Origin: Bacillota bacterium
Lineage (GTDB): Bacteria; Bacillota_A; Clostridia; Lachnospirales; Bianqueaceae
Length of the DNA stretch: 12,978 nucleotides
Direction: 5' to 3'
Assembly: GCA_017420625.1 (NCBI GenBank)
Contig: JAFOIR010000216.1
Span: 1 to 12,978 of the forward strand
Made by a program: the position numbers and the translations under genes. Below are positions 1,319 to 12,978 of this stretch, piece by piece; position 1 is the first letter of the stretch, and every line of letters starts with the position of its first letter. The notes below the pieces were generated by a model. The model saw only the letters and a list, made by a program, of their open reading frames with translations, was not told the origin of the DNA and did not search any database.

Positions 1319-1392
1319 TTACTTCCCGAAGTACCGATCCAGCAGGCCTTTGAAGGCTTTGCCGTGCCGGGCTTCGTCGCGGGCCATTTCAT
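1319..1392 (-). repeat. Left attachment site (attL): displaced rubrerythrin 3' end, copy 2
   Basis: On the minus strand this reads [23 protein letters not shown] and TAA, the rubrerythrin C-terminus. Against 12880-12950 it holds 15 identical bases (GAAGGCTTTGCCGTG) and 21 identical bases ending at 1392, with a few scattered differences. The frame continues at 1393 into sequence unrelated to rubrerythrin, so the fragment is headless. It is the displaced 3' end left when the element entered. The crossover must lie within one of the identical blocks; which one cannot be decided from one copy of the locus. Confidence 0.82.
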
Positions 1393-1393
1393 C

Positions 1394-1410
1394 GCAGGGC
1401 TCCGCCCTGC
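1394..1410. repeat. Seven-base-arm hairpin at the left junction
   Basis: GCAGGGC (1394-1400) and GCCCTGC (1404-1410) form a perfect hairpin with a three-base loop. It begins one base after rubrerythrin homology ends, as expected for element DNA abutting attL. There is no T-run, so it is not an obvious terminator. Confidence 0.5.
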
Positions 1411-1488
1411 GGCTGGTGAAGGTAACAAAATAATTCTGCATTGGAATTACCGCCTTTCAGTGGTAGTCAGTATGCCAGAACGATTGAT

Positions 1489-1530
1489 TTCATTGACATT
1501 TTACAGTGAAATACTCTGATTGTCAATGAA
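1489..1530. repeat. Ten-base inverted repeat upstream of the integrase
   Basis: TTCATTGACA (1489-1498) is repeated inverted as TGTCAATGAA (1521-1530), 22 bases apart. It lies between attL and the integrase, where integrase, excisionase or repressor sites are usual. It includes a TTGACA that could be a -35 box, but I see no good -10 at 16-18 bases. Confidence 0.5.
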
Positions 1531-1588
1531 TCTGGAAGGATGCAAAAGGGAATCAACTTTGATACATCTTTTTATCATCTTCAACACA

Positions 1589-1648
1589 ACTGTTGGGCAT
1601 CTCAAATACATTTTCCAAACATGTTGACCCACCTTTTAGCCCAACAGT
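1589..1648 (+). promoter_or_regulatory. Leader inverted repeat before the integrase, possible arm-type sites
   Basis: ACTGTTGGGC (1589-1598) and GCCCAACAGT (1639-1648) are a perfect ten-base inverted repeat with a 40-base loop. The second arm ends 13 bases before the integrase ATG, next to its ribosome binding site, so a transcript starting upstream could fold and hide it. The core CCCAACA also occurs as direct repeats near the right end (12709-12793), so the arms may instead be integrase binding sites. Confidence 0.5.
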
Positions 1649-1661
1649 AGAAGGTGAAACC

Positions 1662-2876
1662 ATGGCTACAAAGAACACTGGGAGTGTTTTTCAAAAGGAT
1701 AATGGGTACTGGGGTTATCGTTTTGTTGTCAAGATTGATGGCAAGAGGATTGAGCGCAAATGCAGTTTTGATGAACATGGAAATAAGTTCCGAACAAAGA
1801 AAGAAGCGGCTGCGGCAAGAGCAGCGGCGATTGTGAATCTGCGGATCGAAAAGACTGAGAGACCAAAGATTGTTCGCCGCAAGGTCAAGGAAGTGTTTGA
1901 TGAGTTTTGCGCGGAGGGCCGCAAAGATCGTGCTTACATGACAATTCGCAAACAGGACAGCATCTGGGAAAACCACCTGCGGGATCGGTTCGGAGATCGC
2001 TACGTTGATGAGATCAGTTGCGCGGAGGTTGTGGACTATCTTTCAGAACTGTACTACGTGGACAATTTGGCATTTCGCTACGTGGAATCGTTCCTGAAAA
2101 TGTTTTACCTGATCTTCGGGCAGGCGTATTCCCGTAATTATCTGGATGTGGACACCTACAACAAGCTGTGCGTCAACAAAAACACAAAAATCCACATGCC
2201 GAAACTGAAAACTGAAGACGACACGGACATTGTTGCTTTCAGCAAAGAAGAATTGGAACGGCTGGACGAGTATTTCAAGGGAACGAATGCTGAAACGGCT
2301 TACCTGCTGGGCCGTTACTGCGGGCTTCGGATCAACGAAGCCTTTGGCCTGAAATGGGATCACGTGGATTTGGACGAAGGGACAATCACCATTGATCGGC
2401 AGATGCAGTATCAGGACAGCCTGATCAAACTGGTTGGCCCGAAGACAATCAATTCCAAGAGAACGATCATCCTGTGCGATGTGCTGAAAGAGCATCTTCG
2501 GCAGAAGAAAAAACAGCGGGACGAAGACGAGAAAACCTACAAGGCAGTCCGTGTGCAGAAGCGCCGCCTGATCGATGATGTTGATGGAAAGAAGATTTAT
2601 TCCACAGAACTTGTAAACTGCCTGCCGAACGGTACGATTCAGACGGTCAATTCGTTCAAGTATCCATCAAGAGAGATCAAATCAAAACTGGGGATCAACT
2701 TCAAGTATCATTTCCTCCGCCACACTTTCGGAACCATGATGGCGGAAATGAATACACCAACTCATTTGCTGTGCAATCAGATGGGGCATGGCAACATTCA
2801 TGTCACGCAGCGATACTACATCGCGATTTCAAAGAGTGGGATAGACATCCTCCGCCACAATCTGAACAGTCTGTAA
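1662..2876 (+). CDS. int: Tyrosine recombinase/integrase of the island
   Basis: The 404-residue protein catalyses site-specific integration and excision by the phage-integrase mechanism. Order of domains: an N-terminal arm-binding region (residues 7-60, GSVFQKDNGYWGYRF...), a SAM-like core-binding domain (about 74-165), and the catalytic domain (about 190-404). Catalytic residues visible are R223 in GLRINEAFGL, K261, H350 and R353 in HFLRH, H376 in MGHGNIH and the nucleophile Y386 in TQRYYI, so the active site is complete. I chose ATG 1662 because it follows GAAGGTG at a good distance; an upstream in-frame TTG at 1593 has no support and would lie in an inverted repeat. It sits 270 bases from attL and reads inward, the normal arrangement. 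A hairpin at 2885-2907 separates it from the convergent WYL gene. Confidence 0.93.
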   Translation: MATKNTGSVFQKDNGYWGYRFVVKIDGKRIERKCSFDEHGNKFRTKKEAAAARAAAIVNLRIEKTERPKIVRRKVKEVFDEFCAEGRKDRAYMTIRKQDSIWENHLRDRFGDRYVDEISCAEVVDYLSELYYVDNLAFRYVESFLKMFYLIFGQAYSRNYLDVDTYNKLCVNKNTKIHMPKLKTEDDTDIVAFSKEELERLDEYFKGTNAETAYLLGRYCGLRINEAFGLKWDHVDLDEGTITIDRQMQYQDSLIKLVGPKTINSKRTIILCDVLKEHLRQKKKQRDEDEKTYKAVRVQKRRLIDDVDGKKIYSTELVNCLPNGTIQTVNSFKYPSREIKSKLGINFKYHFLRHTFGTMMAEMNTPTHLLCNQMGHGNIHVTQRYYIAISKSGIDILRHNLNSL

Positions 2877-2884
2877 TGAAGAAT

Positions 2885-2910
2885 CGCAGGCGGATCAACC
2901 GTCTGCGTAT
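2885..2910 (+). terminator. Hairpin terminator candidate between integrase and WYL gene
   Basis: CGCAGGCGG (2885-2893) pairs with CCGTCTGCG (2899-2907), one G-U pair, loop ATCAA, followed on the plus strand by TATTCTTTAT. It lies 9 bases after the integrase stop and overlaps the stop codon of the convergent WYL gene. The T-tract is poor, so termination is plausible rather than certain. Confidence 0.5.
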
Positions 2911-4025
2911 TCTTTATACATTTCACTGATCTTCTCGATGTACGCTGTGAATTGCTCTACAACGTGATTCGGAGAAAGAATCGCTGCCCTCCGCCCGAAG
3001 CCCAAGATCCAGCCAAAGAACTGATCACTGATTTTGACATCTGTGGTCACTGTAAAATACTGATCACCTTTCTGAAAATACTGAACATCTCGACTGGTGC
3101 CAAACCGATCAATCACGGTATCCAACAGGGGCATGATAAACTGCAACGTTACATGCTCCTGTTTTCCTTCATACATCGAAAAGGTTCGTTGTGCGTATGT
3201 TCGAATGTCGATTGAACGAAATACTTCTTCGCCGTCACGCGGCTCTTTGGTTGGACTGACGTTTTTCATGCGGTCAACGCGATAAGTCCGCATTTTCTGG
3301 CTCTTGTCATCAAAAGCAAGAAGATAGTAATTTCCATCATTGATCAGCAGTCTGTAAGGGCTGACTTTGTAGGTTTCGCCCTGCCGCCTTTCAACCTGAT
3401 TGCTCAGATCATGGATCGAATACTTCAGATATTTGAAAGTCACCTTTTCTGGAACATGCTTGACCCCGCCGATGCTTTTGCTCATGGCATCGTTCAAAGT
3501 AGAAATGTAATTCAGGACATTTTTATTGTTGGTTTTTACACGATCAGTCAGGAAAGCATCATGCTGGATTTTTTCTGCCTCATGATCGCTGACAAAGCTG
3601 CTCACAACGTTGACAAGCCGCTGGGCTTGACTTTCAGCGATGAATTTTGCGGAGTAAACACATTCTGCCAATAGTCGAATATCATTCAGATCGTACTTGC
3701 GGCGATACGGATCAATGTAGAATCCTTTTTTTGAACTGTCGTATTTGACCAATTTCAATTCGTCAGAATCGTCTTCACTCAGCATTTCATCTGCTTCATC
3801 CAAAGTGCAGTCTTCATCCAGAGCCAAGGCGATTCTGTTGATTTCCTCAATGTCTTTGTAAATTGACCGACGGTCAGCATACATTCCGCAGCACTCAAGT
3901 AGGAATCCCTTGATTTCTGTTGCAGAGACGAAATGGTTTTCATCAGAATTTTTCAAAAGGTATTGTAGAACAGCGTATGGCTTGAGTTTCTGGTTTGGTT
4001 TTTTCCCGCGCTGTGATTTCTTCAA
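2895..4025 (-). CDS. WYL-domain transcriptional regulator
   Basis: The 376-residue protein has the layout of WYL regulators. An N-terminal winged-helix region (about 12-70) includes ATEIKGFLLECCGMYADRRSIYKDIEEI. The WYL domain is at about 192-262 (YKVSPYRLLINDGNYYLLAF, then TYRVDRMKNV), with YYL in place of the WYL signature. A C-terminal WCX-like domain (about 290-370) includes FFGWILGFGRRAAILSPNHV. WYL domains bind small ligands or nucleic acid and control stress, phage-defence and mobile-element genes. The start is a TTG at 4025 behind GGAG at nine bases. A sigma-A promoter lies at 4059-4087. It is convergent with the integrase and divergent from the small-gene cluster at 4273, across a large palindrome; control of that cluster or of the element is inference. 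Confidence 0.88.
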   Translation of the reverse strand: MKKSQRGKKPNQKLKPYAVLQYLLKNSDENHFVSATEIKGFLLECCGMYADRRSIYKDIEEINRIALALDEDCTLDEADEMLSEDDSDELKLVKYDSSKKGFYIDPYRRKYDLNDIRLLAECVYSAKFIAESQAQRLVNVVSSFVSDHEAEKIQHDAFLTDRVKTNNKNVLNYISTLNDAMSKSIGGVKHVPEKVTFKYLKYSIHDLSNQVERRQGETYKVSPYRLLINDGNYYLLAFDDKSQKMRTYRVDRMKNVSPTKEPRDGEEVFRSIDIRTYAQRTFSMYEGKQEHVTLQFIMPLLDTVIDRFGTSRDVQYFQKGDQYFTVTTDVKISDQFFGWILGFGRRAAILSPNHVVEQFTAYIEKISEMYKEYADG

Positions 4026-4058
4026 CGAACATCACTCCGATCTGCATGCTCTTGATAC

Positions 4059-4087
4059 ATTATAAAATCTGGCAAATCAGAACGCAA
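4059..4087 (-). promoter_or_regulatory. Sigma-A promoter of the WYL gene
   Basis: On the minus strand a perfect -10 TATAAT (4059-4064) sits 17 bases after a -35 TTGCGT (4082-4087). Transcription would start about 27 bases before the TTG start codon. Confidence 0.65.
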
Positions 4088-4130
4088 CCGAAAATCCCGT
4101 CACAGTCGTCATGTGCCGTCTGACTTTGCA

Positions 4131-4188
4131 TTCCTCAAACGTTGATTCTTGTAATAGTCATTTATTGGATTGATCAACGTTTGAGGAA
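4131..4188. repeat. 58-base palindromic repeat, copy A
   Basis: TTCCTCAAACGTTGAT (4131-4146) is inverted perfectly as ATCAACGTTTGAGGAA (4173-4188) around a 26-base AT-rich loop. A second copy with one changed base pair in the arm lies at 10631-10688. The loops are also alike at their left side (TCTTGTAATAGT versus TCCTCTAATTGT), so the two are homologous and have the same orientation. Copy A lies between the divergent WYL and 56-residue genes. It has no T-run in either direction, so it is not a simple terminator. Confidence 0.8.
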
Positions 4189-4272
4189 AACACCTTTGGG
4201 CAAAGCGTGTTACGGAGTGTTTCTGAATCTTCAACAATAGTGAAGAAAAAACACGAGAAGGAGTTGTTTGTT

Positions 4273-4443
4273 TTGACAACGATTCAGTTCAAAATTGATT
4301 ATGACAAGAAAACAGGCGTTGCGCATGATGCGGCGAAATGCGAACTATCTCTTTCTACAATCATGCGGCGCATGGTAGAAATCTACTTGACTGATTACGA
4401 TTTTCGCAGGCGAGTATTACAGTACAATCCTTACAGCGGATAG
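4273..4443 (+). CDS. Small protein of unknown function, possibly ribbon-helix-helix-like
   Basis: The product has 56 residues from the TTG at 4273, chosen because it follows GAAGGAG at nine bases. A GTG at 4207 would add 22 residues but lacks a ribosome binding site. The sequence starts with a short strand (TTIQFKIDYD) and continues into two predicted helices (AHDAAKCELSLSTIMRRMVEIYLTDYDFRRRVL). That order and the LSLSTIMRRMVEIYL helix resemble ribbon-helix-helix DNA-binding proteins, but no strict motif proves it. It is the first gene of a rightward cluster of three small genes, 17 bases ahead of the next, and follows palindromic repeat copy A. Confidence 0.6.
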   Translation: MTTIQFKIDYDKKTGVAHDAAKCELSLSTIMRRMVEIYLTDYDFRRRVLQYNPYSG

Positions 4444-4460
4444 GAAGGAGTGCGTTGATC

Positions 4461-4775
4461 ATGGGACTATCCACAGCAGACATTGCCAGTGATCGTGCGG
4501 CTGTTATTTCTCATGTTATGAGAACGGAAGCGCAATTAGAAAACCAACCAAACCACATGCGGCATGTGGAAAACCAAATCCGATACACAGATGCGCAGTG
4601 CGCAGCAACAGAATTGAGAATCAAAGCATGGGTCGCATCCGAAGTGCCGAAGATCGTTCAACGGGTATTGAAAGACCCGAGGAATCAAGTTGCGATTGAA
4701 ACCAAGGTTGATGAAAAATCATTAGCCGAGGCAAAACGGAAAATCACAGACATGATCAAGTCCATTTTCCACTAA
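4461..4775 (+). CDS. Unknown 104-residue protein, paralogue of the next gene
   Basis: I chose ATG 4461, behind GAAGGAG at 4443-4449; TTG 4455 is a poorer alternative. The N-terminal 60 residues are helical and charged (TEAQLENQPNHMRHVENQIR), likely coiled-coil. The C-terminal part, AWVASEVPKIVQ then KVDEKSLAEAKRKITDMIKSIFH, matches the whole second half of the neighbouring 60-residue protein (WIDSEVPQMM, then DKETLKQVEKKVTEMLKQYFK). The pair therefore shares a W-x-x-SEVP element and an amphipathic C-terminal helix ending in an aromatic. No family is recognised. The gap to the next gene is 19 bases, so they are probably cotranscribed. Confidence 0.65.
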   Translation: MGLSTADIASDRAAVISHVMRTEAQLENQPNHMRHVENQIRYTDAQCAATELRIKAWVASEVPKIVQRVLKDPRNQVAIETKVDEKSLAEAKRKITDMIKSIFH

Positions 4776-4794
4776 TGCGAAGGGAGTATTTCTT

Positions 4795-4977
4795 ATGAAC
4801 GTAACAAAAGAAAGAAAAACCGGTACAAACGAATTGCATAATTGGATTGATTCAGAAGTGCCACAAATGATGGACGATGAAGCTGAAAAACCAAATACTG
4901 AAATTGTGATCGACAAGGAAACGTTGAAACAGGTTGAAAAAAAAGTCACTGAAATGCTCAAACAGTATTTCAAATGA
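4795..4977 (+). CDS. Unknown 60-residue protein, short paralogue of the preceding gene
   Basis: The start ATG follows AAGGGAG at eight to nine bases. The protein is small, charged and probably helical. It shares with the preceding gene product the W-x-x-SEVP motif and the C-terminal helix with the pattern K-x-V/L-x-x-x-x-K-V/I-T-x-M-I/L-K-x-x-F. It lacks the N-terminal coiled-coil-like half, so it looks like a tandem duplication followed by loss or gain of that domain. A strong terminator follows eight bases after the stop and closes the cluster. Function unknown. Confidence 0.62.
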   Translation: MNVTKERKTGTNELHNWIDSEVPQMMDDEAEKPNTEIVIDKETLKQVEKKVTEMLKQYFK

Positions 4978-4984
4978 CATGCGG

Positions 4985-5026
4985 CGGGCTGTTGATGTAA
5001 GAATCAGCAGCCCGTATTTTGTTTTT
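4985..5026 (+). terminator. Rho-independent terminator of the small-gene cluster
   Basis: A 12-pair stem (4985-4996 with 5003-5014, one G-U pair) is followed by TATTTTGTTTTT. Confidence 0.85.
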
Positions 5027-5177
5027 CAAGCCTCCGCCACCGTCTTTCAAAATCGAAGACACTCTTGGAATCTGTGCAGACCTGGGCGGGCGGGGTGTGG
5101 GATGCGCCAGTTTTTCCGCCCGTAATACGCCCCCCCGCCACCACTTCGGAATCAGCTCTCCCGCATGCTTGGGCGGC
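5027..5177. other. GC-rich spacer without a gene
   Basis: This stretch is far richer in G and C than its surroundings, with G-runs at 5084-5095, a C-run at 5129-5136, and CGGGCGG (about 5086) inverted as CCGCCCG (about 5115). No convincing protein is encoded. It may be the tail of the leftward Xre transcript. Confidence 0.4.
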
Positions 5178-5390
5178 TCACGCCTGTTCGTCTGGGATGT
5201 ATTCCATCAGATCGCCGGGCTGACATTCAAGCACAGCGCAGATTTTTTCAAGTGCATCGATGGGCAGGTGCTTCACAGACCCCGTACAAATTGCCGAGAT
5301 GGTCGAAGGACGTACCCCGGTCAAATCAGCCAACTGCTTTTGATTGATCTCTTTCAGGGCAAGTTGTACCCTCACGCGAAATTTGATCAT
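5178..5390 (-). CDS. Xre/Cro-CI family repressor
   Basis: The product has 70 residues, nearly all one helix-turn-helix domain of the five-helix lambda-Cro/CI type. The HTH is at residues 18-38 (QKQLADLTGVRPSTISAIC), and the closing region LPIDALEKICAVLECQPGDLMEY is typical of the short YozG-like group. ATG 5390 follows AAAGG at ten bases; upstream in-frame codons would lie in the promoter. Its promoter (5414-5442) and the promoter of the divergent gene (5494-5522) carry the same operator in the spacer. The family and layout indicate that it represses both itself and the rightward 91-residue/ArdC unit. Confidence 0.88.
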   Translation of the reverse strand: MIKFRVRVQLALKEINQKQLADLTGVRPSTISAICTGSVKHLPIDALEKICAVLECQPGDLMEYIPDEQA

Positions 5391-5413
5391 CGAATCACAC
5401 CCTTTCAGGCGGG

Positions 5414-5442
5414 ATTGTATCACGAATTGAGTTATTTCACAA
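5414..5442 (-). promoter_or_regulatory. Promoter of the Xre gene with operator O1 in the spacer
   Basis: On the minus strand: -35 TTGTGA (5437-5442), 17-base spacer AATAACTCAATTCGTGA, -10 TACAAT (5414-5419). The spacer matches the spacer of the divergent promoter in 15 of 17 bases. Confidence 0.75.
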
Positions 5443-5493
5443 CTGTTTGCGTGAAAAAATTCTAAAAAAATGAAAGAAAATAACGAAAAAGTG

Positions 5494-5522
5494 TTGACAA
5501 ATAACGCAATTCGTTATATAAT
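5494..5522 (+). promoter_or_regulatory. Consensus sigma-A promoter with operator O2 in the spacer
   Basis: TTGACA (5494-5499), a 17-base spacer and TATAAT (5517-5522) match the sigma-A consensus exactly. The spacer and the first -10 base contain the palindrome ATAACGCAATTCGTTAT (5501-5517), with half-site ATAACG. A bound Xre dimer would cover both promoter boxes. The short leader behind it has a GGGG/CCCC hairpin around 5535-5550. Confidence 0.85.
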
Positions 5523-5576
5523 AACAATGTCAAGAGGGGCAGCAAGTCCCCACGAATGAAAGGAAGGTAAAAAACA

Positions 5577-5852
5577 ATGTGTAAGGCGAACGACAGCATC
5601 ATCACCAAGGTTTCCGATCTGATGGAACTCCGTAAAATGATCGAAGACTTGCAGACCGAAGCCGAAGCCCTGACTGATGAAATCAAGGCTTACATGGGCG
5701 AAGAGGAAACCATGATGGCGGGAACTTGGAAAGTCACCTACAAAGCCACGGTTTCCCGCAGGATGGACACCACGGCGCTGAAAAAGGTTCTGGGCGATGC
5801 GCTTGAAGGGTATTACAAGACCGTGGTCACCAGACCCTTCAAGGTTATTTGA
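5577..5852 (+). CDS. Phage-like small protein of unknown function (91 residues)
   Basis: The start ATG follows GAAAGGAAGG. Residues 1-45 form a charged helical, probably coiled-coil region (LMELRKMIEDLQTEAEAL). Residues 46-91 (MAGTWKVTYKATVSRRMDTTALKKVLG..., ending KTVVTRPFKVI) resemble the C-terminal motif of phage-borne small proteins with the pattern S-x-R-x-D-T-x-x-L-K and a final R-x-F. These occur next to phage recombination genes, but their function is not settled. It is the first gene behind the strong repressed promoter at 5494, so it is likely expressed on induction together with ardC downstream. Confidence 0.7.
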   Translation: MCKANDSIITKVSDLMELRKMIEDLQTEAEALTDEIKAYMGEEETMMAGTWKVTYKATVSRRMDTTALKKVLGDALEGYYKTVVTRPFKVI

Positions 5853-5854
5853 AA

Positions 5855-5947
5855 ACCGGGCACCTACCACAGCACCCGGTCAGATGCTCACCACGGAATC
5901 ATGACAAACCACGGGAGCGGGAACATTCTACCACGGTTCCCGCTCCC
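5855..5947 (+). promoter_or_regulatory. Structured leader with two hairpins before ardC
   Basis: ACCGGG (5855-5860) pairs with CCCGGT (5875-5880). A perfect 12-pair stem (5913-5924 with 5936-5947) follows, with an 11-base loop. The motif CCACRG recurs in both loops and between them. There is no T-run, so these may be attenuation, RNA-processing or DNA-binding structures. Confidence 0.5.
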
Positions 5948-5973
5948 CTCACAAGAGGAAGGGAGCAAATCAA

Positions 5974-6798
5974 ATGGACATTTACGGCGAAATAACCAAC
6001 AGGATCATCAGTGAAATGGAAAAGGGAATCATCCCTTGGAAAAAGCCTTGGATCGCAAGCGGCGCGGCAATCAGCCACACGACCGGCAAGCGTTACTCCC
6101 TGCTGAATCAGATGCTCTTGGGTCGTCCCGGCGAGTACATCACTTTCAAGCAGGCACAGCAGGAAGGCGGGCACGTGCGGCAGGGTGAAAAATCTCACAT
6201 CGTGGTTTTCTGGAAGTTCCTGCCGGTGATTGACGAAGACACGCAGGAAGAGAAGCAGGTTCCCTTCCTGAAATACTACAACGTTTTCCACATCGACCAG
6301 TGCGAAGGGATCACGGCAAAGCACACGCAGCCCATGCCGAACAGCGCAACCGCAGACGAAACTGCGGAAAGCATCATCGCCGCATATGTGGAGCGTGAGA
6401 GCGTCAGTCTGGAACATGCCGAAGGGGATGCCGCTTTTTATCAGCCCGCCGCAGATCGGATTGTGCTTCCTCTCTTGGCACAGTTCGCCGAGACTGCCGA
6501 GTATTACGGAACCGCCTTCCATGAAATGGTTCACAGCACAGGCCATATGAAACGGCTTGCGAGACTGGAAACGCCTGCACACTTTGGCGGCGAAGAGTAC
6601 AGCAAAGAGGAATTGATTGCCGAGATCGGCAGCGCAGCCCTTGTCAGTCATTGCGGACTGGAAACGCCGCAGTCCTTCCACAACAGCGCCGCGTACATTC
6701 AGGGATGGCTGCGAGCCTTGAAAGATGACAAGCGCTTCATTGTCAGCGCCGCGGGTAAGGCTGAAAAAGCAGTAGATTACATCCTGATGGGGACTTGA
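5974..6798 (+). CDS. ardC: ArdC-family antirestriction protein (ssDNA-binding plus zincin-like domain)
   Basis: The 274-residue product starts with the ArdC N-terminal ssDNA-binding domain (MDIYGEITNRIISEMEKGIIPWKKPW, then YSLLNQMLLG, then EGGHVRQGEKSHIVVFWK, to about residue 110). It continues with a zincin-like metallopeptidase domain. The zinc motif is HEMVH at 183-187 with a following H191, and a likely third ligand lies in EELIAEIGSAAL (about 212-223). ArdC of plasmids and ICEs shields incoming single-stranded DNA from restriction. Length is close to the family norm of about 290. It is preceded by GGAAGGGAG and lies behind the Xre-controlled promoter. It is notable here because no conjugation genes are present, so the island may be mobilised by a helper. 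Confidence 0.9.
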   Translation: MDIYGEITNRIISEMEKGIIPWKKPWIASGAAISHTTGKRYSLLNQMLLGRPGEYITFKQAQQEGGHVRQGEKSHIVVFWKFLPVIDEDTQEEKQVPFLKYYNVFHIDQCEGITAKHTQPMPNSATADETAESIIAAYVERESVSLEHAEGDAAFYQPAADRIVLPLLAQFAETAEYYGTAFHEMVHSTGHMKRLARLETPAHFGGEEYSKEELIAEIGSAALVSHCGLETPQSFHNSAAYIQGWLRALKDDKRFIVSAAGKAEKAVDYILMGT

Positions 6799-6809
6799 TC
6801 CCCGTCAGG
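6783..6809 (+). other. Hairpin spanning the ardC stop codon
   Basis: CCTGATGGGG (6783-6792) pairs with CCCCGTCAGG (6800-6809), one G-U pair, and the loop holds the ardC TGA. No T-run follows, so it is more likely an mRNA-stability or attenuation element than a terminator. Confidence 0.45.
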
Positions 6810-6829
6810 TCTGGAAAGGGTGATTGATT

Positions 6830-6988
6830 GTGTTCTACATCGTGCGGGTCTGGGAACCTGATGGAGTCAATGACTATGAATACAACAGTCAGGAAGACGC
6901 ACAAGCGCATATGCAAACGACCGAATACCACGCTGAAATGTATGTCTGGCTTGCAGGGCGTGAGTGGTTCATGAGCAGCGCGAATTGA
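6830..6988 (+). CDS. Unknown 52-residue acidic aromatic-rich protein
   Basis: A GTG at 6830 follows GGAAAGGGTG and opens a frame of 52 residues, MFYIVRVWEPDGVNDYEYNS to WFMSSAN. It contains eight Tyr/Trp residues and many acidic ones, with a strand-rich look (FYIVRVWEP, MYVWLAG). It begins 31 bases after ardC and is probably cotranscribed. No family is recognised. Small acidic proteins beside ardC genes can act in antirestriction or regulation, but nothing in the sequence proves that here. Confidence 0.6.
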   Translation: MFYIVRVWEPDGVNDYEYNSQEDAQAHMQTTEYHAEMYVWLAGREWFMSSAN

Positions 6989-7094: not shown

Positions 7095-7661
7095 ATGATT
7101 TACGGATACGCTCGCGTGTCAACCGCCACGCAGAGCCGCGATGGCAACAGTCTGGAAGAACAGGTTGCCGCACTCACTGCATATGGATGCCAAGAGATTA
7201 TTCAGGAAGCCTTTACAGGGAAGACGATGGAACGACCTGCCTTTCAATCTCTCTTGGGTAAGCTGACCGAATCAGATATGCTTGTGGTCACGAAACTGGA
7301 TCGTTTCGCCCGCACAGCGATTCAAGGTGTTCAGACTGTGCGGGACCTGTTTCAGCGTGGTGTGAAGGTGCACATCCTCAACATGGGCTTGGTGGAGAAT
7401 ACCTTGACAGGGAATCTTATATTGACTGTGATGCTCGCTTTTGCAGAATACGAGCGTGGAATGATCGTAGAACGCACTCAATCAGCAAAACAGGTCTTGC
7501 GGCAGAACCCTGATTTCAGGGATGGCAGACCGCGCAAGTTTACGGATGAACAAATCAGTCTGGCTCTTGACCTCTTGGGATCAGGCAAGAGTTACGGGCA
7601 GGTGCAGAAGATGACAGGGATTAGCAAAAGCACACTGATCAGAGCCAGAAGAACACAGTGA
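7095..7661 (+). CDS. Small serine recombinase (resolvase/invertase family)
   Basis: The 188-residue protein has the resolvase N-terminal catalytic domain: YGYARVST with nucleophile S9 and R7, [11 protein letters not shown] (about 63-73) with the conserved D-R-x-x-R, then the long E helix ([19 protein letters not shown]). The C-terminal HTH of the Hin/Tn3 type is at about 140-185 ([10 protein letters not shown], then [19 protein letters not shown]). It catalyses DNA resolution or inversion through 2-base-staggered cuts. It is full-length. The start follows AGGAAGGAGCG at a good distance. The repeat cluster at 6993-7044 lies upstream. Its target site is unknown; the paired 58-base palindromes flanking the region are one candidate. 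Confidence 0.92.
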
Positions 7662-7688
7662 AATCAATCAGGAGAGGCACGTTCTTTG

Positions 7689-7716
7689 TTGTGAATCTGG
7701 ATATTCGTGATATAAT
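7689..7716 (+). promoter_or_regulatory. Promoter of the AAC(3) gene, similar to the Xre-controlled promoters
   Basis: TTGTGA (7689-7694), a 16-base spacer, and TATAAT (7711-7716). The last 14 bases, ATTCGTGATATAAT, match the same part of the Xre promoter (ATTCGTGATACAAT) and of the divergent promoter (ATTCGTTATATAAT), while the left operator half is missing. Confidence 0.65.
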
Positions 7717-7779
7717 AATCAATGTTTATTTTTTGATTTTGTCGGCTATAACAATCAAGAGTCATGGAGGAAGTATTCA

Positions 7780-8562
7780 ATGCGTCCAATAATCAAGGAT
7801 GATTTTTTGCGCGTTTTTCATTCTCTCGGACTGGAGAAGGGACATACGCTGATGGTTCATACATCATTGTCGAAATTCGGATATGTGTGCGGCGGCGCCC
7901 AAACTGTCATTGAGGCTCTTCTTGAAACGGTCGGTGAAGAGGGTACGGTTATGATGCCGACACAGTCGTGGAAGAATCTCGACCCCGAAGACGGAGTCCA
8001 TTGGGACGTTGCAGAAGAATACTGGCAAATGATCCGGGATCATTGGCCTGCATACGACAAGCGTATTACACCTACCAATACGATGGGATCTGTAGCTGAA
8101 ATGTTTCGTTCCTGGCCCGGCGCTGTTCGGAGCGATCACCCCGCAAGATCGGTAGCAGCCTGGGGAAAGCACGCTGAGTATCTTGTTTCCGGTCATGATT
8201 TTTCCAACATTTTCGGAGACGGCTCCCCCATTGGAAAACTATACGAATTGGACGGCGACGTATTGCTTCTCGGCGTTGGTTATGACAAGAACACTTCGCT
8301 CCACCTCGCTGATACACGCGCTGCCTACCCCGGCAAGCACAACTGCGTTGAACACAGCGCCATTATGGAAAACGAAAAACGTGTCTGGAAAGCATATGAA
8401 ACGCTCTTCGTTGACGGCGAAGATTTTGAACAGATTGGAACGGCATTTGAACAGGCATGCACTGTCAGACATGGTAAACTTGGAAATGCTGAACTTCGCC
8501 TGATGAAGCAGCGAGAGCTTGTGGATTTTGCAACTGACTGGATTCAGCATAACAGAACATAA
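7780..8562 (+). CDS. AAC(3)-family N-acetyltransferase, cargo gene
   Basis: The 260-residue protein matches the aminoglycoside 3-N-acetyltransferase family (not the GNAT fold). Landmarks are MVHTSLSKFGYVCGGAQTVI (25-44), GEEGTVMMPTQSW (52-64), RSDHPARSVAAWGKHA (117-132), SPIGKLYELDGDVLLLGVG (149-167) and NTSLHLADTRA (171-181). Known members transfer acetyl from acetyl-CoA to the 3-amino group of deoxystreptamine aminoglycosides; others (YokD-like) have unclear substrates. Where relatives usually have H-x-x-E, this protein has H175 and D178, so resistance should not be assumed. Length is normal. The start follows GGAGGAA at a good distance, and the gene has its own promoter at 7689. It lies between the recombinase and DUF6273 genes and is probably acquired cargo. 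Confidence 0.87.
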   Translation: MRPIIKDDFLRVFHSLGLEKGHTLMVHTSLSKFGYVCGGAQTVIEALLETVGEEGTVMMPTQSWKNLDPEDGVHWDVAEEYWQMIRDHWPAYDKRITPTNTMGSVAEMFRSWPGAVRSDHPARSVAAWGKHAEYLVSGHDFSNIFGDGSPIGKLYELDGDVLLLGVGYDKNTSLHLADTRAAYPGKHNCVEHSAIMENEKRVWKAYETLFVDGEDFEQIGTAFEQACTVRHGKLGNAELRLMKQRELVDFATDWIQHNRT

Positions 8563-8679
8563 TGAGATCCCGGATAAATCGAAATATATTTTGATTTTCC
8601 TGCCCATCGGTATGGAGGAAACAGATTTGCAGGATATTTCGTTTATATCAGTGGAATCCATGAAAAGGAATTGAAGCTG

Positions 8680-9669
8680 ATGAAAAAGCATTTTGCGATC
8701 GCAATTCTACTCATATTGGTTTTTGCTGTCTCTATAAGTACAGTCCTGGCAGAAACACCGATCACTCAGTCTTTCGATACCATTGGCAGTATTGTGACTT
8801 TTGGCCGCTATGAGCAGGACGGCGACAAAGAGAACGGTCCTGAGGAAATTGAGTGGGTTGTGCTGGATGTGCAGGATGGAAAGGCCTTGCTGCTGAGCAA
8901 ATACGGGCTGGAAGCGAAGCCGTACAATACGGAATATACAGATGTCACATGGGAAACCTGCACGCTGCGTGCCTGGCTGAACAGCGATTTCCTGAATAAG
9001 GCATTCAGCGCGGAAGAACAATCCGCCATCCTGACCACCACGGTGGACAACAGCTCCAGCCAGGGTTACAACGATTTGAATTCGATCGATGGGAACAATA
9101 CGCAGGATAAAATCTTCCTGCTGAGCTATGCGGAGGCGAACCGGTACCTCAGTGTAAAATACTGGAAAGAGGACGACGGCAATAACACAAAATCCCGCGT
9201 TGCGCCTACAGATTACGCCATCGAAACCGGCGCATACAGCACTGACATTTACCAGACGGCAGACGGAAAGCCGGCAGGGTGGTGGTGGCTTCGGATGCCC
9301 GGCCTCAGTAATTTCGACGCCCCGTACGTGCACAACGGCGGCTCGCTCTACTACGAAGCTGTCTTCCGCGACTATGGTGTTGTCCGCCCCGCTTTCTGGC
9401 TGAATCTGTATGCTGCAGACGAAAAAGGCGGAGATACAACCGTAAAGATTCACGGCATCGTATATTACAACACGAAAAAAGTCATTCCGGTTGAACCTGA
9501 AGAGAGTGCTATTGTAAACGAGGAACTTCCAATAAATGGAAGTATGACTGATAAAAAAATAACTGCATATGCGTTCATAAACGATGAACAATCGGATGAT
9601 ATTCTGGTGTGCCTTATTGATGGAGAGTGGTATCAGTTTCTGGCTACAGAACGAGTAGGACAACCTTGA
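8680..9669 (+). CDS. Secreted DUF6273-domain protein
   Basis: The 329-residue product has a signal peptide: KK, a hydrophobic core FAIAILLILVFAVSIS, and probable cleavage after VLA at residue 24. The mature part starts with a small beta region (GSIVTFGRYEQDGD, IEWVVLDVQDGKALLLSKYG). The DUF6273 body follows: WETCTLRAWLNSDFLNKAF, IFLLSYAEANRYL, and the signature WWWLRMPG with GVVRPAFWLNL (about residues 205-245). DUF6273 domains, related to formylglycine/lectin-like folds, are common in clostridial secreted proteins; their role is not known. ATG 8680 is preferred because AAAAGG lies 11 bases ahead; the TTG at 8671 is too close to it. No lipobox or membrane anchor is seen. It may travel with the AAC(3) gene as cargo. 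Confidence 0.82.
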   Translation: MKKHFAIAILLILVFAVSISTVLAETPITQSFDTIGSIVTFGRYEQDGDKENGPEEIEWVVLDVQDGKALLLSKYGLEAKPYNTEYTDVTWETCTLRAWLNSDFLNKAFSAEEQSAILTTTVDNSSSQGYNDLNSIDGNNTQDKIFLLSYAEANRYLSVKYWKEDDGNNTKSRVAPTDYAIETGAYSTDIYQTADGKPAGWWWLRMPGLSNFDAPYVHNGGSLYYEAVFRDYGVVRPAFWLNLYAADEKGGDTTVKIHGIVYYNTKKVIPVEPEESAIVNEELPINGSMTDKKITAYAFINDEQSDDILVCLIDGEWYQFLATERVGQP

Positions 9670-9770
9670 GTATTCGCCCGACGTGCTGGAAATATTTTTT
9701 TGGTTTATTGAGCAAATTATGGAATGAAATCTCGGAAGTTATCTATTCAATGTGAAGATTGATGAATCAG
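9670..9770. other. Spacer after the DUF6273 gene
   Basis: I see no gene and no hairpin terminator on the plus strand directly after the DUF6273 stop. The only strong structure is the hairpin at 9775-9803, which could also stop rightward transcripts but lacks a T-run on that side. Confidence 0.35.
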
Positions 9771-9803
9771 AAAAAAGATGGAAGCGCAATTTGCTTCCAT
9801 CTT
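9771..9803 (-). terminator. Rho-independent terminator of the leftward block
   Basis: AAGATGGAAGC (9775-9785) and GCTTCCATCTT (9793-9803) form a perfect 11-pair stem with a seven-base loop, followed on the minus strand by a T-run (A-run 9771-9776). It lies about 50 bases after the 251-residue gene. Confidence 0.85.
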
Positions 9804-9855
9804 CGCAGTTTATTCAGTTTTCGGTTCATGTGCAGACGATTCCTTTCTGCGGGGA

Positions 9856-10611
9856 TTATTGACCTTTCATCAGTGCGGCAAAGTGATCATCTACGATCTT
9901 ATCAACCAGCGCCAGCACGGTTTCGGTATCTTCATCTGTGAGGCCGTTTACCTGCAAGCACTTACACTGATAGTAACGGCAATGGAATACTGCCCACAAG
10001 CATTTTTCCAGTAGGTGATAAGCGGTGTTGACATTGCCATTGGTTCGGCGGAGCATCTCTGGGAGTATTTTTGCTTTGTATTCCCGGTAATTGATCAACT
10101 CAGGATCGGTTTCATCAACGGGGACACGATGCTTGACTCCATCGATGTAGTAAGTCATCCACCACATAGCTCCGGTACTGCTTTTATTCATGATGTCATG
10201 CACTATTAGGCGGTTTGTCCATCGTTGAAGACACGGCGGACAAGCTGTGACACCATAGTTTTCGTTCAACCAAGCGTAACGCTCATCCCAAGGCATGGTT
10301 TCTGCGATCTCCTCTGTCATCATGAAGTGAAGATAGCAGGCGAACACTGTTGATCCGTTATCCATCTCACCATTAGTTCCAGTTTGGGTATCCAGTTCGA
10401 ACAGCCTGAACATAATTTCTTTCAGCCTGTCTTCGGGTGTTTCGGGCTTGCCGGTGATGATGACAGGGCCGCGGTCAACGATGACGTATTGATAACCCCA
10501 TCTGCTCAGACGATTTTCCGTGTCACGCTTGAAATTCTTTGGAGCAGGATTCACATGCAGGATGCTTGCAATCTCTTTGCGATCATAACTCCGCAATTCT
10601 AACTGTTCCAT
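9856..10611 (-). CDS. Unknown 251-residue protein with N-terminal HTH
   Basis: The ATG at 10611 follows GGAGGGATGGATC. Residues 5-55 (LRSYDRKEIASILHVNPAPKNFKRDTENRLSRWGYQY...VIITG) look like a winged helix-turn-helix of the kind found at the N-terminus of plasmid or phage replication and DNA-binding proteins. The remainder has no family I recognise. It contains six cysteines in two clusters (C124-P-P-C127, and C204, C211, C216, C218), which could bind zinc or a metal cluster. It is the last gene of the leftward block, behind palindromic repeat copy B and ahead of a strong terminator. A role as element replication initiator or regulator is possible but unproven. Confidence 0.7.
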   Translation of the reverse strand: MEQLELRSYDRKEIASILHVNPAPKNFKRDTENRLSRWGYQYVIVDRGPVIITGKPETPEDRLKEIMFRLFELDTQTGTNGEMDNGSTVFACYLHFMMTEEIAETMPWDERYAWLNENYGVTACPPCLQRWTNRLIVHDIMNKSSTGAMWWMTYYIDGVKHRVPVDETDPELINYREYKAKILPEMLRRTNGNVNTAYHLLEKCLWAVFHCRYYQCKCLQVNGLTDEDTETVLALVDKIVDDHFAALMKGQ

Positions 10612-10630
10612 GATCCATCCCTCCGCCTTT

Positions 10631-10688
10631 TCCTCAAAGGTTGATTCCTCTAATTGTTTTATGTTATGGCATGATCAACCTTTGAGGA
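10631..10688. repeat. 58-base palindromic repeat, copy B
   Basis: TCCTCAAAGGTTGAT (10631-10645) is inverted perfectly as ATCAACCTTTGAGGA (10674-10688) around a 28-base loop. Against copy A (4131-4188) one arm position changed C to G, with the matching change in the other arm, so the pairing is preserved. It lies between two leftward genes, 5 bases after the stop of the 145-residue gene and 20 bases before the start of the 251-residue gene. Confidence 0.8.
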
Positions 10689-10693
10689 GAGGA

Positions 10694-11131
10694 TCATGCA
10701 GCGGTCTGCAAAGTGGTTTCTGATTTGGAAGCGCGATCAGCATCTTGCTTTTCAGACGGCAGACCAAATTTGACAATTTCAGGGTATTTTTCCAGAAACC
10801 AACTCTTGATCGCGGGATAACGGAATGCTTTTCCGTGACATTCGGAGATCAAACGCTTCTCGTAGAATTCTGCCAGATTCGCGTTCCGTGTCTCTTCTGG
10901 TCCGTGAGTCAAAATGTAGTCTTCCATGTACTCGTAAGTCAAACCCTGATAGGTTTCTTTGTGCGGATTCTTGCGGATTTGACGCTGAATCACTTTGTAT
11001 TCAGGATAATCCCGGCGAACCCGCTGTAACTGTTCGTATTCTTTGAACCATGTCTTTGTTGCATTCTTGGCAAAAGTGCGATCCATGACAATAGTCCGAT
11101 CTTTGTGGTTGACGATCAATGTGTTCTTCAT
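10694..11131 (-). CDS. Unknown 145-residue protein, paralogue of the upstream gene
   Basis: ATG 11131 follows GGGAG at eight to nine bases; a TTG six codons upstream overlaps the binding site and is less likely. The protein matches its neighbour (11179-11583) along its length: a start with strands (NTLIVNHKDRTIVMDRTFAK), a helix with RRDYPEYKVI, the core motif YQGLTYEYMEDYILTH (about 67-82), and the closing KSWFLEKYPEIVKF. Proteins of this type recur in clostridial conjugative and integrative elements from memory, but no function is known to me. It is probably cotranscribed with its paralogue. Confidence 0.72.
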   Translation of the reverse strand: MKNTLIVNHKDRTIVMDRTFAKNATKTWFKEYEQLQRVRRDYPEYKVIQRQIRKNPHKETYQGLTYEYMEDYILTHGPEETRNANLAEFYEKRLISECHGKAFRYPAIKSWFLEKYPEIVKFGLPSEKQDADRASKSETTLQTAA

Positions 11132-11178
11132 CCTTATTTCTCCCTTCAAATTGCATGAATAGTAGGTTGAGCCGTGGG

Positions 11179-11583
11179 TCAGGCTGCTTTCCGATCAAGC
11201 AGCCTGGCACGTGCTTCGTGATGAGCGGCGATTTGCGGATACCGGTTCAGGAACCATACTTTGATTTCCTGATAGCTGAAGGATTCGTCCAGCATTTCTT
11301 CCGATTCGGTATCCTTGGCGCGCAGGGATTTGTACTCTTTCATGATGCTGTTGTTTTCATCATCATGATTGGAGATGTACTTTTCCATGTACTTGTAGGT
11401 CAGACCCTTGAAGACAGGCTTTACAGTCTTCTGAGCGATGATCACAACACGGTAAGTCGGATGGTCGTTGCGTGCATCCCGAAGCAGTCTGTAGGCTTTA
11501 CTGTCGAAGATGCTGGCTTTTGCGGCAAAGGTCTTGTTGATCTCGAGGGTGCAGTTCTTGTCGTTGATTTTGATGGTACTCAT
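11179..11583 (-). CDS. Unknown 134-residue protein, paralogue of the downstream gene
   Basis: The ATG at 11583 follows GAAGGAAGGAA. The sequence parallels the next gene: TIKINDKNCTLEINKTFAAK, RNDHPTYRVVI, FKGLTYKYMEKYISNHDD and KVWFLNRYPQIAAHH. The shared core is F/Y-x-G-L-T-Y-x-Y-M-E-x-Y-I-x-x-H and the shared end is W-F-L-x-x-Y-P-x-I. The fold appears alpha/beta; no catalytic motif is seen and no signal or membrane segment is present. It has its own promoter (11642-11673), of the same unusual kind as that of the 90-residue gene, so the two transcription units are probably co-regulated. Confidence 0.74.
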   Translation of the reverse strand: MSTIKINDKNCTLEINKTFAAKASIFDSKAYRLLRDARNDHPTYRVVIIAQKTVKPVFKGLTYKYMEKYISNHDDENNSIMKEYKSLRAKDTESEEMLDESFSYQEIKVWFLNRYPQIAAHHEARARLLDRKAA

Positions 11584-11641
11584 TTTTTTATTCCTTCCTT
11601 CTCATGGGTTTTTTTAGTGTTTTCCTTCACTTGATGTCATT

Positions 11642-11673
11642 ATTGTAACTCTTGAGTTTTGATAACCTGTCGT
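11642..11673 (-). promoter_or_regulatory. Promoter with spaced motif ACGACA-N16-GAGTTA (copy 1)
   Basis: On the minus strand ACGACA (11668-11673) lies exactly 16 bases before GAGTTACAAT, which contains a -10 box TACAAT (11642-11647). No good -35 lies at 17 bases. The same motif with the same spacing is found at 12465-12496. Confidence 0.6.
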
Positions 11674-11704
11674 TTTATTGGTACACATTTAGAAGTTGTT
11701 CAGA

Positions 11705-12079
11705 TCAGTCAGTCAGATAGTCTTCGCACAGAACCGTAACGAATTCACGGCGCGATGATTCATAATCGTCAAAGTAGTAACCGCAGTTCAACAAATCTTC
11801 GAGATTGCTGACGCCTTTCAGACATTTTCTGCGCGAATGCCTTTTGATGTCCCTGATCATTGTGTCGATGATTCCGTCACACAGTTTGATGGCAGTGGCA
11901 TAGAAGTTTTTGTTGTATGCCATCAGCAGCTTCCGATCTGAGTAATCGATGGATTTCAGGGTTTCCAGCGAATCTGGGGAATAGTCCAGAGTTGCAGCCA
12001 CCTTGATGTTTTCCATGAATGCCTTTACGAAATTACTGGTATTGGGATCAATGACGGGCAGAACGTGGATGGTATTCAT
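11705..12079 (-). CDS. Unknown 124-residue protein
   Basis: The ATG at 12079 follows GAAAGGAGTGAG. The sequence is mostly helical after residue 15 (NFVKAFMENIKVAATL, LMAYNKNFYATAIKLCDGII, TMIRDIKRHSRRKCLKGVSN) with an acidic C-terminus. No domain is recognised. It starts 25 bases after the 90-residue gene and shares its promoter. Conserved cell location is likely cytoplasmic: no signal peptide or membrane helix is visible. Being in the regulated leftward block of the island, it may serve maintenance or anti-host functions, but that is context only. Confidence 0.65.
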   Translation of the reverse strand: MNTIHVLPVIDPNTSNFVKAFMENIKVAATLDYSPDSLETLKSIDYSDRKLLMAYNKNFYATAIKLCDGIIDTMIRDIKRHSRRKCLKGVSNLEDLLNCGYYFDDYESSRREFVTVLCEDYLTD

Positions 12080-12104
12080 TTTCTCTCACTCCTTTCCTTA
12101 CTTA

Positions 12105-12377
12105 TTAGGCAACCATCATTTTGATGGATGACTTTACGATGATAGTGCTGGGATCCATGGCAATTGCAATCTGATTTGCAATCACGTAGTCAGTGGCTTC
12201 CTCAAACATCAGTGGCTTGGATTCTTTGACGGAGATGATGGAAAGCATCGGAACGTTGTTGAGCTTGCAACAATCTTCCAGAGTGAAGTCCAGAGGCGCG
12301 ATGGCCTGAACTGTCCGCAGGTTTCCGCTTGTGGCTCTTGCTTTGATCTCGATGATTTTCGTGGTTTTGCGATTCAT
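12105..12377 (-). CDS. Unknown 90-residue protein, first gene of the leftward block
   Basis: The ATG at 12377 follows AGAGAGG at about six bases. The product begins NRKTTKIIEIKARATSGNLR and contains strand-helix alternation (PMLSIISVKESKPLMFEEATDYVIANQIAIAMDPSTIIVKSSI). No family is recognised and no catalytic motif is seen. It lies about 90 bases downstream of a promoter with a palindrome (12465-12509) and ahead of the 124-residue gene, with which it forms an operon. Confidence 0.65.
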   Translation of the reverse strand: MNRKTTKIIEIKARATSGNLRTVQAIAPLDFTLEDCCKLNNVPMLSIISVKESKPLMFEEATDYVIANQIAIAMDPSTIIVKSSIKMMVA

Positions 12378-12464
12378 TTGAACCTCTCTTTCTTTTGATG
12401 CGGATTATTTGGCCCGCCGACCTTTACTTCTGGTTTCGGTTGCTCACCTCAACCTTGTGACCAT

Positions 12465-12509
12465 AGTATAACTCTGGAAATTACAAAATGTGTCGTTATA
12501 ATGCGACAC
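12465..12509 (-). promoter_or_regulatory. Promoter with ACGACA-N16-GAGTTA motif (copy 2) inside a palindromic operator
   Basis: On the minus strand ACGACA (12491-12496) lies 16 bases before GAGTTATACT with -10 TATACT (12465-12470). The upstream box is part of the palindrome GTGTCGTTATAATGCGACAC (12490-12509), a likely regulator site just upstream of the polymerase footprint. Confidence 0.6.
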
Positions 12510-12708
12510 GTTGGAGAAATCAAAAAAGATTTTTCAAAGAATTCGAGCGAAACATAAATGCGCTTGAAAACAAGTAAAATCAACGTGTAGAGATAACAGA
12601 AAGATGTATCAAAGTCGTTTGAAACATGCTTCGATCTCACTTGCGGCTTGTAGCAGAGTTGTTATTGTTTTCAATGCTTCTGAGTGGTAAAATGAGTGCG
12701 CGAAAGGT
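12510..12708. other. Right-end non-coding stretch
   Basis: Between the promoter palindrome and the first CCCAAC repeat I see no gene. Open frames here lack ribosome binding sites, and the longest (12609-12962, minus) reads the rubrerythrin end out of frame. Confidence 0.5.
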
Positions 12709-12793
12709 CCCAACATTTTGGAGACCCAACATTTGAGATAAATCGAGCAGTTTTTACCTGCGGGAAGGAGGGAAGTCCCAACCGAGGCCCAAC
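12709..12793. repeat. CCCAAC direct repeats near the right end, candidate integrase arm sites
   Basis: CCCAACATTT occurs at 12709-12718 and 12725-12734 (period 16), and CCCAAC at 12777-12782 and 12788-12793 (period 11). The related CCCAACA is found in both arms of the inverted repeat beside the integrase (1591-1597 inverted, 1640-1646 direct). Repeats of this kind at both ends fit arm-type sites bound by the N-terminal domain of tyrosine integrases. Confidence 0.55.
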
Positions 12794-12814
12794 CCTGATC
12801 GTTGAGATGAGCAT

Positions 12815-12845
12815 GAAAAAAGAGTGACCCTCTTCGGATCACTCT
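12815..12845 (-). terminator. Rho-independent terminator of rubrerythrin copy 3
   Basis: AGAGTGACCC (12821-12830) pairs with GGATCACTCT (12836-12845), with one wobble pair in the minus-strand RNA. On the minus strand it is followed by a run of seven T (A-run 12815-12821). It lies about 35 bases after the stop of the active rubrerythrin copy, so it is provided by the element. Confidence 0.82.
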
Positions 12846-12879
12846 TGCCTGAAACCGTTGATTTACCTTGGTTTGCGGA

Positions 12880-12978
12880 TTACTTGAAGTACCGCTCCAG
12901 CAGACCCTTGAAGGCTTTGCCGTGACGGTCTTCGTCGCGGGCCATTTCATGCACGGTGTCATGGATGGCGTCCAGGCC
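12880..12978 (-). CDS. rbr: Rubrerythrin, C-terminal end (partial), rebuilt at the right attachment site
   Basis: The frame enters from beyond the right edge on the minus strand and reads 32 residues from [20 protein letters not shown] to [12 protein letters not shown] and TAA. EMARDE-x-RHGKAF with its E, D/E and H ligands is the last helix of the rubrerythrin di-iron four-helix domain; rubrerythrins reduce hydrogen peroxide with electrons from rubredoxin in anaerobes. The short rubredoxin tail is absent, so the protein may be a short or reverse-order (rubredoxin-first) type. The last ~70 bases equal the left copy at 1319-1392. They are therefore attR and were brought by the element, leaving the host gene intact with a new terminator (12821-12845). 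Confidence 0.85.

Follow-up and report, generated by a model that had tools for sequence, protein, structure and literature searches.

The 3' end of a reverse rubrerythrin gene as the integration site of an 11.5-kb element and the base of a tandem array of single-gene modules

The window considered here, i.e., the whole stretch of 12,978 nucleotides (nt) that was analyzed from a Bacillota bacterium (assembly GCA_017420625.1, contig JAFOIR010000216.1), carries an 11.5-kb island with a tyrosine integrase, and both borders of this island consist of the 3' end of a rubrerythrin gene (rbr). The locus raises the question of how the end of a single protein-coding gene comes to stand on both sides of an island, and what has happened to the gene itself. 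We consider it highly probable that the 11.5-kb unit is a site-specific integrative element, whose rbr-directed integrase leaves rbr intact, and whose reusable site piles up a tandem array. A previous reading made from the letters of the window (hereafter, the sequence-only reading) had proposed that the island entered the 3' end of rbr and rebuilt the gene. The features on which the argument depends are as follows.

957 to 1008, minus strand: third rbr 3'-end copy, at which an older unit to the left begins (repeat finding and profile).
1015 to 1254, minus strand: single-gene module between two rbr ends, encoding a protein of 79 amino acids (aa) with a weak helix-hairpin-helix match.
1285 to 1306, minus strand: terminator-like hairpin behind the displaced rbr end, recognized by eye and absent from the list of the terminator scan.
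1319 to 1392, minus strand: displaced rbr 3' end, the left border of the island.
1370 to 12882, no strand assigned: the island, as the unit conserved between the window and genome G001 (pairwise comparison).
1498 to 1526, minus strand: outward promoter-like site TTGACA-17-TAAAAT, directed toward the displaced rbr end and the module that follows (promoter scan).
1662 to 2876, plus strand: tyrosine integrase of 404 aa (Pfam Phage_integrase, 6.2e-16).
12816 to 12846, minus strand: terminator-like site at the right end of the island, now behind rbr (stem 12846–12820 plus a T tail).
12880 to 12978, minus strand: rbr 3' end now in use, the right border of the island.

The two border copies (1319–1392 and 12880–12950) are both on the minus strand and include their stop codons. 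The sequence-only reading had reported ~70 bases of the rbr end at both borders and an integrase just inside the left one, both of which are confirmed; repeat finding aligned 1328–1392 with 12886–12950 over 65 nt at 92% identity. Both copies match Pfam Rubrerythrin weakly, being short (E 0.092 and 0.029). On the left side, the homology ends at ~1392, with element DNA beyond; on the right side, the copy stays in an open frame as far as the window end (32 codons, with no stop ahead of the final one), although the border lies only 99 nt from that end and the window itself holds just the end of rbr. The two rbr ends reported earlier are joined by a third, weaker copy at 957–1008 that had been overlooked (profile score of 30 bits, model positions 6–51), and the 79-aa gene stops 6 nt short of it. 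Modules related to this one occur in genomes G014, G020, G021, and G058. No tRNA or tmRNA genes were found in the window.

Other genomes (designated by G numbers), many of which are fragmented into many contigs, show the same site with and without the island. In G014 and G020, an intact rbr leads straight into the left flank of the window (positions 953–1392 at 96.4% identity over 440 nt, and 954–1392 at 93.4% over 439 nt, respectively). These are empty sites for the 11.5-kb unit, which the sequence-only reading had suggested looking for in relatives, and each has one rbr end at the position of the island. The same element is present in G001 (CAMKNZ010000001.1), a metagenome-assembled genome of an uncultured Clostridia bacterium, at 99.84% identity over 11,558 nt, with 11 substitutions and one indel between window positions 1393 and 12874, and its flanking DNA differs from that of the window. 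A small membrane-protein-like gene lies behind the displaced rbr end of G001, and the right end of the element joins an intact rbr encoding a complete 179-aa rubrerythrin, which substantiates the earlier claim that the right copy runs on into an intact reading frame. This protein matches RUBY_RBDX at 3–31 and Rubrerythrin at 60–116; since the rubredoxin-like domain precedes the rubrerythrin domain, the target gene is a reverse rubrerythrin.

The two borders might instead be an old duplication of rbr or of its 3' end, with the island merely lying between the copies. This account can point to the ~8% difference between the borders and to the rbr-end copies that G014 and G020 bear downstream of the empty site in the absence of the island. 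The sequence-only reading had regarded island-free strains with two rbr ends as evidence against integration, and taken literally such strains exist; however, the further ends in G014 and G020 are older array modules, whereas the two copies that bound the island collapse to one. The single copy at the island's position is continuous with an intact rbr, the same element is bounded by rbr in G001, and like borders surround 30 other elements with related integrases; on this evidence, a duplication appears extremely unlikely.

The site-specific reading can be judged further by the behavior of the integrase family. In a protein collection, 3,816 relatives of the island integrase were found with E <= 0.001 among 7,997 scored, and residues R223, H350, R353, H376, and Y385/Y386, which we take to be of the catalytic type, are invariant in 29 aligned sequences. 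A scan of species-representative genomes with a 29-member alignment gave 87 relatives, the best 80 of which were kept as loci (L numbers); they derive mostly from Clostridia, many of them from ruminant gut samples. The integrase start plus at least 350 nt upstream was readable in 66 of the 80 loci, and in 62 of these assessable loci a minus-strand rbr 3' end precedes the integrase by less than 450 nt, which places the border arrangement of the window beyond chance. A full-length rbr match lies downstream within the locus in 30 of the 62, with border-to-border spans of 3.4–11.0 kb. Across all 80 loci (1.265 Mb), a 51-nt rbr-end profile gave 113 matches above 10 bits, five of them on the plus strand. 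The island integrase family is an rbr specialist, and the earlier view of rubrerythrin as an uncommon target is reversed for this family, in which rbr is the rule. Among the publications listed on rubrerythrin together with integrases, attachment or integration sites, genomic islands, hotspots, or integrons, and among those listed on cis-mobilizable accretion and on integron-like cassettes, no rbr integration site was apparent from the title or the start of the abstract. Against 72,556 records of plasmids and 50,697 of phages, the integrase gave no matches at 1e-60, and no relatives were confirmed in two scans of viral contigs; a phage or plasmid origin was rejected on these absences.

One single locus and one group of loci deviate from the usual arrangement. 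At L045, rbr ends stand at the start of the locus and at 7.4 kb, and their orientation with respect to the integrase is the reverse of what is usual. In L010, L013, L015–L018, L021, L039, and L058, the left rbr copies match 53–87 codons, compared with ~20 usually, and these elements may carry, or may have picked up, a longer piece of rbr.

What has collected behind rbr was explored by applying the 51-nt profile to the window and to 61 fetched loci of G001 and its relatives, many of which were picked because the search had shown several rbr-end copies. At least two copies occur in 28 of the 61 loci and in the window, all in the orientation of rbr and none opposite. Among 150 relatives of G001, an rbr-end match with E <= 0.001 is present in 106, and at least two copies were counted by hand in 32, a figure in which some copy pairs lie on separate contigs and the copies of one genome need not be stacked. 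At a stricter E <= 1e-4, at least two copies were found in 18 of 120 relatives of the carrier G152, a set overlapping that of G001, and in 11 of 99 relatives of G153 (a Butyricicoccus record); the profile was built from the G001 group, which may partly account for these lower counts.

Consecutive rbr-end copies enclose 47 modules, 40 of which are shorter than 1.3 kb and many only 0.26–0.37 kb. The small modules are att-bounded units without integrase or transfer genes. Their longest open reading frame (ORF) lies on the rbr strand in 34 of 40, stops within 16 nt of the next copy in 27, and fills at least half of the module in 31; all three cassette-like properties coincide in 25 of the 40. A control of 200 rounds, in which length-matched segments were sampled at random and on a random strand from the same fetched loci, arrays included, averaged 1.4 such cases and never exceeded 5. 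The longest ORF also follows the rbr orientation in four of six modules of 1.8–3.3 kb, reaching up to 873 aa. The module proteins include HTH_3, HEPN, HepT-like, DUF4234, DUF2442, DUF3795, and DUF3592 families above the Pfam cut-off, weak matches to helix-hairpin-helix, DUF4177, and Gly-zipper families, and several small, often membrane-like, proteins without a family match. The rbr 3' end is an accretion array of elements and compact single-gene modules.

Some of this cargo has a recognizable character. Successive modules of 767 and 851 nt at L142 (G067) carry HepT-like and HEPN-domain proteins, i.e., toxin-like cargo, and module proteins at L114 and L135 have, by eye, a double-glycine (GG-type) leader and a bacteriocin-like look.

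Two or more genomes share modules of six families whose proteins are at least 93% identical, and several of these modules differ in position. The helix-hairpin-helix module is the first behind rbr in G014 and G020 and the second in the window, where it follows the 11.5-kb unit, and in G021 a relative with 75% identity is the last of the modules found; the membrane-protein-like module occupies the second position in G014 and G012 and the first in G058. The helix-turn-helix (HTH) module of G010 and G070 is first in both and is then followed by the same sequence, which is uninformative with regard to order. In the 150 genomes, the helix-hairpin-helix protein has four matches at E <= 1e-15, each of them situated between rbr-end copies. 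The membrane-like protein has 22 matches at E <= 1e-12, of which three with at least 96% identity and one with 64% are in arrays, two (69% and 56%) are accompanied by a single rbr-end copy within the stretch fetched, and the remaining 16 by none.

The small modules may have arisen by decay, as worn-down remnants of larger elements of the type of cis-mobilizable elements (CIMEs), reduced to one gene and its borders and not built as cassettes. Both CIMEs and tandem accretion are established, according to a review (PMC5704250); some modules, such as those of L123 (502 nt) and L114 (842 nt), look like bare element ends, and 15 of the 40 small modules lack at least one of the three properties. Decay would not halt at gene borders so often, however, and it fits poorly with the one snug sense ORF in 25 of 40 modules against a random mean of 1.4 and with the recurrence of the same compact module in several genomes in different neighborhoods. 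An origin of the small modules as remnants is therefore considered unlikely, while still deserving serious attention.

Several observations weigh against integrase-driven accretion at rbr. First, 32 of the 62 loci with a left copy show no full-length rbr downstream in the available stretch, which is at most 6.1 kb in 21 of them and at least 10.7 kb in 11; L001 was the only long-stretch locus followed further, and rbr was found just beyond. Second, four of the 66 assessable loci (L019, L038, L042, and L070) have no upstream rbr copy, L038 and L042 nevertheless keeping a full-length rbr downstream. Third, only two of the 150 relatives carry the integrase (E <= 1e-80), although 32 have at least two rbr-end copies, so that for most arrays the mover is not seen. 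Finally, when copies of the same element or module are compared, divergence is far greater in the rbr core than in the bodies, which simple inheritance with a fixed crossover does not predict.

The last of these points can be localized within the repeat. In 11 pairs of like modules, which form seven groups and are not independent, the bodies are 90–99% identical; their 3' copies are conserved at positions 1–20 of 51 and then fall to background, and their 5' copies are just slightly above background throughout. Between the window and G001, the left core differs by four substitutions and a 3-nt gap and the right core by eight substitutions; a mis-assembled contig end is possible for the right-border core of the window and would affect that one case only. 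Judged by the left copies, a fixed crossover would lie at or before repeat position 9–10; judged by the right copies, it would lie at the last codon or the stop. This divergence between copies is incompatible with a fixed crossover and an element-inherited core, and target-site duplication was also rejected, since the copies within one genome differ (8% in the window; ~10%, or 6 of 57 nt by eye, in G001) while the element is nearly identical. We infer that exchange is resolved at variable points within the homologous ~45-nt rbr core, such that cores would be swapped. The shortest left copies shrink to about GARGC (L005, L026, and L040), and hence the kept homology begins at the codons of the E-x-x-H segment. 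This C-terminal segment of rbr aligns with the E-x-x-H of a solved rubrerythrin, where it presumably serves as an iron ligand. The notion that the island rebuilds the gene holds for the intact C-terminus and the element-borne terminator-like site, but the rbr cores at the borders are not simply inherited with the element.

Core exchange also bears on a different origin of the arrays, in which modules and rbr alleles would be shuffled mainly by homologous recombination after DNA uptake, the integrase bringing large elements only. The exchange of rbr cores independently of modules and the lack of the integrase in 148 of the 150 relatives are in keeping with it. Nonetheless, the shared ends measure ~45 nt, and neighboring copies within an array show a mean identity of 80% (46 pairs); ends of this length and likeness are short and diverged for efficient homologous recombination. 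Moreover, the core differences reach the last codon before the stop, and different neighbors without homology lie beyond. Homologous recombination as the main shuffling route is accordingly held to be improbable.

Given the observed target, the empty sites, the element in a second context, the stacked copies, and the single-gene modules shared in different order, the following course of events is proposed for site-specific integration at rbr. The tyrosine integrase would insert the element into the last codons of the reverse rubrerythrin gene, around the DNA of the E-x-x-H segment, with the strands probably exchanged at variable points within the ~45-nt core. After integration, rbr would still possess a complete C-terminal end with its stop codon and, behind it, the element-borne terminator-like site, and the old rbr 3' end would be displaced downstream. 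With an rbr end still adjoining rbr, the site is reusable, and elements and modules pile up in the rbr orientation. The small modules may be moved by the rbr-specific integrase, either in trans or on passing elements, and may be read from rbr or from the outward promoter of an element.

A promoter-like site scan of the left-end region of the island found one such site against 0.8 expected. Over 63 element left ends (the window plus the 62 loci, some of them closely related, with L001 being the same element), outward sites with at least 10 of 12 matches occur at 18 and inward ones at three, whereas 50 shuffles gave a mean of 1.3 and a maximum of 4. The outward sites could feed the displaced array or, in an excised circle, the right-hand minus-strand genes of the element itself.

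Among known systems, the tandem islands at ssrA of Dehalococcoides are similar in several respects. As described in PMC3146451, they are stacked behind one gene, are bounded by direct repeats of its 3' end, contain the integration module in some cases only, and lack conjugation genes; unlike the rbr arrays, they involve a tmRNA gene and a serine integrase instead of a protein gene and a tyrosine integrase, and the compact single-gene modules set the rbr arrays apart. The rbr elements also resemble accretion by integrative and conjugative elements (ICEs), integrative and mobilizable elements (IMEs), and CIMEs, in which attL and attR are copies of a gene 3' end, the newcomer enters beside the gene, and units without an integrase retain their att sites, as described in the review PMC5704250; that review makes no mention of rubrerythrin, and many rbr modules, in contrast to such elements, are single genes. 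Moreover, no relaxase or conjugation genes occur among the scanned ORFs of the window, and no relaxase appears in the 25 Pfam families shown of 29 from 143 ORFs of 30 elements; the elements are therefore not shown to be mobilizable. The island is characterized as an integrative element by a tyrosine recombinase beside one border, by target copies directly repeated at the two borders, and by the existence of an empty site. The rbr array is a new form of tandem site-specific accretion at a gene 3' end.

Elements of the Tn916 type likewise have a single tyrosine integrase of similar length at one element end; they are conjugative and little site-specific, whereas the rbr elements span 3.4–11 kb between borders and are rbr-specific.

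Integrons and clusters of attC sites lacking integron integrases (CALINs), as described in PMC8618304, share with the rbr arrays the single orientation, the mostly single-ORF cassettes, the order differing between genomes, the toxin-like cargo in some, and an often missing integrase; the platform differs, being the end of a housekeeping gene and not attI. The island integrase scores 26.1 bits against the IntI model TIGR02249 (cut-off 265), and the rbr repeat, folded as DNA on six strands, of which only one site was folded on both strands, is no better than shuffles (z −1.40 to +0.72). Membership among integrons was rejected, since the integrase is not of the IntI type and the repeats lack attC-like folding. 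It is nevertheless conceivable, though we would rate it somewhat below an even chance, that the reverse rubrerythrin 3' end serves in Clostridia as the landing platform of a system equivalent to the integron, in which promoterless single-gene cassettes would be captured, expressed from rbr or from the outward promoter of visiting elements, and shuffled by a non-IntI tyrosine recombinase that uses catalytic-motif codons as a swappable attachment core.

Between its borders, the island carries the following further features; relatives were counted in the 30 other bounded elements.

1551 to 1580, plus strand: left arm of a terminal inverted repeat containing ACTTTGATACATCTTT, a possible integrase arm site.
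2895 to 4025, minus strand: WYL/WCX transcriptional regulator, with relatives in 17 of 30 elements.
5178 to 5390, minus strand: Cro/C1-type HTH regulator.
5577 to 5852, plus strand: 91-aa protein, with relatives in 9 of 30.
5974 to 6798, plus strand: ArdC-like antirestriction protein, with relatives in 1 of 30.
7095 to 7661, plus strand: small serine recombinase (resolvase/invertase), with relatives in 11 of 30.
7780 to 8562, plus strand: aminoglycoside 3-N-acetyltransferase-like protein (NCBIfam AAC_3, 210.5 bits, under the cut-off of 270).
8671 to 9669, plus strand: DUF6273 protein.
9856 to 10611, minus strand: 251-aa protein without a family match.
10694 to 11131, minus strand: protein without assigned function, its family present in 15 of 30.
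11179 to 11583, minus strand: protein with relatives in 11 of 30.
11705 to 12079, minus strand: small protein without a family match.
12105 to 12377, minus strand: small protein without a family match.
12591 to 12620, plus strand: right arm of the terminal inverted repeat.

The AAC(3)-family acetyltransferase (7780–8562) has no relative in the 30 other elements. A Pfam scan of 143 longer ORFs, out of 207 mechanical ORFs in the 30 elements, placed resolvase domains in 17 proteins and WYL domains in 14. Terminal inverted repeats as a general trait of all elements were borne out only partly, as the word ACATCTTT is present at both ends in five of 31 elements and inverted-repeat lengths are near the control for most. 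A 43-nt repeat (79%) at 10905–10947 and 11366–11408 gives two adjacent minus-strand island genes the appearance of paralogues. Outside the island, in window positions 1–180, two frames, one of a GNAT acetyltransferase on the minus strand and one of surface-repeat-like character on the plus strand, seem broken near 170–180, which looks like a join of two sequences, either a rearrangement or an assembly join.

In C. difficile, reverse rubrerythrins reduce O2 and H2O2, are controlled by sigma-B, and contribute to growth at low O2 (PMC7482061); this physiology makes the choice of site interesting and proves nothing about the captured genes. For the integrase family as a whole, the findings provide a defined, testable target in a conserved oxygen-defense gene. 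For the Clostridia, many of them uncultured, they describe a gene-capture array that works in an integron-like manner without being an integron. Should expression of the small modules be coupled to that of rbr, new genes would on capture fall under a housekeeping gene which is stress-controlled elsewhere. A signature of 50 nt makes such arrays findable, together with their small unknown genes, which include membrane proteins, HEPN-type proteins, and perhaps bacteriocin-like peptides.

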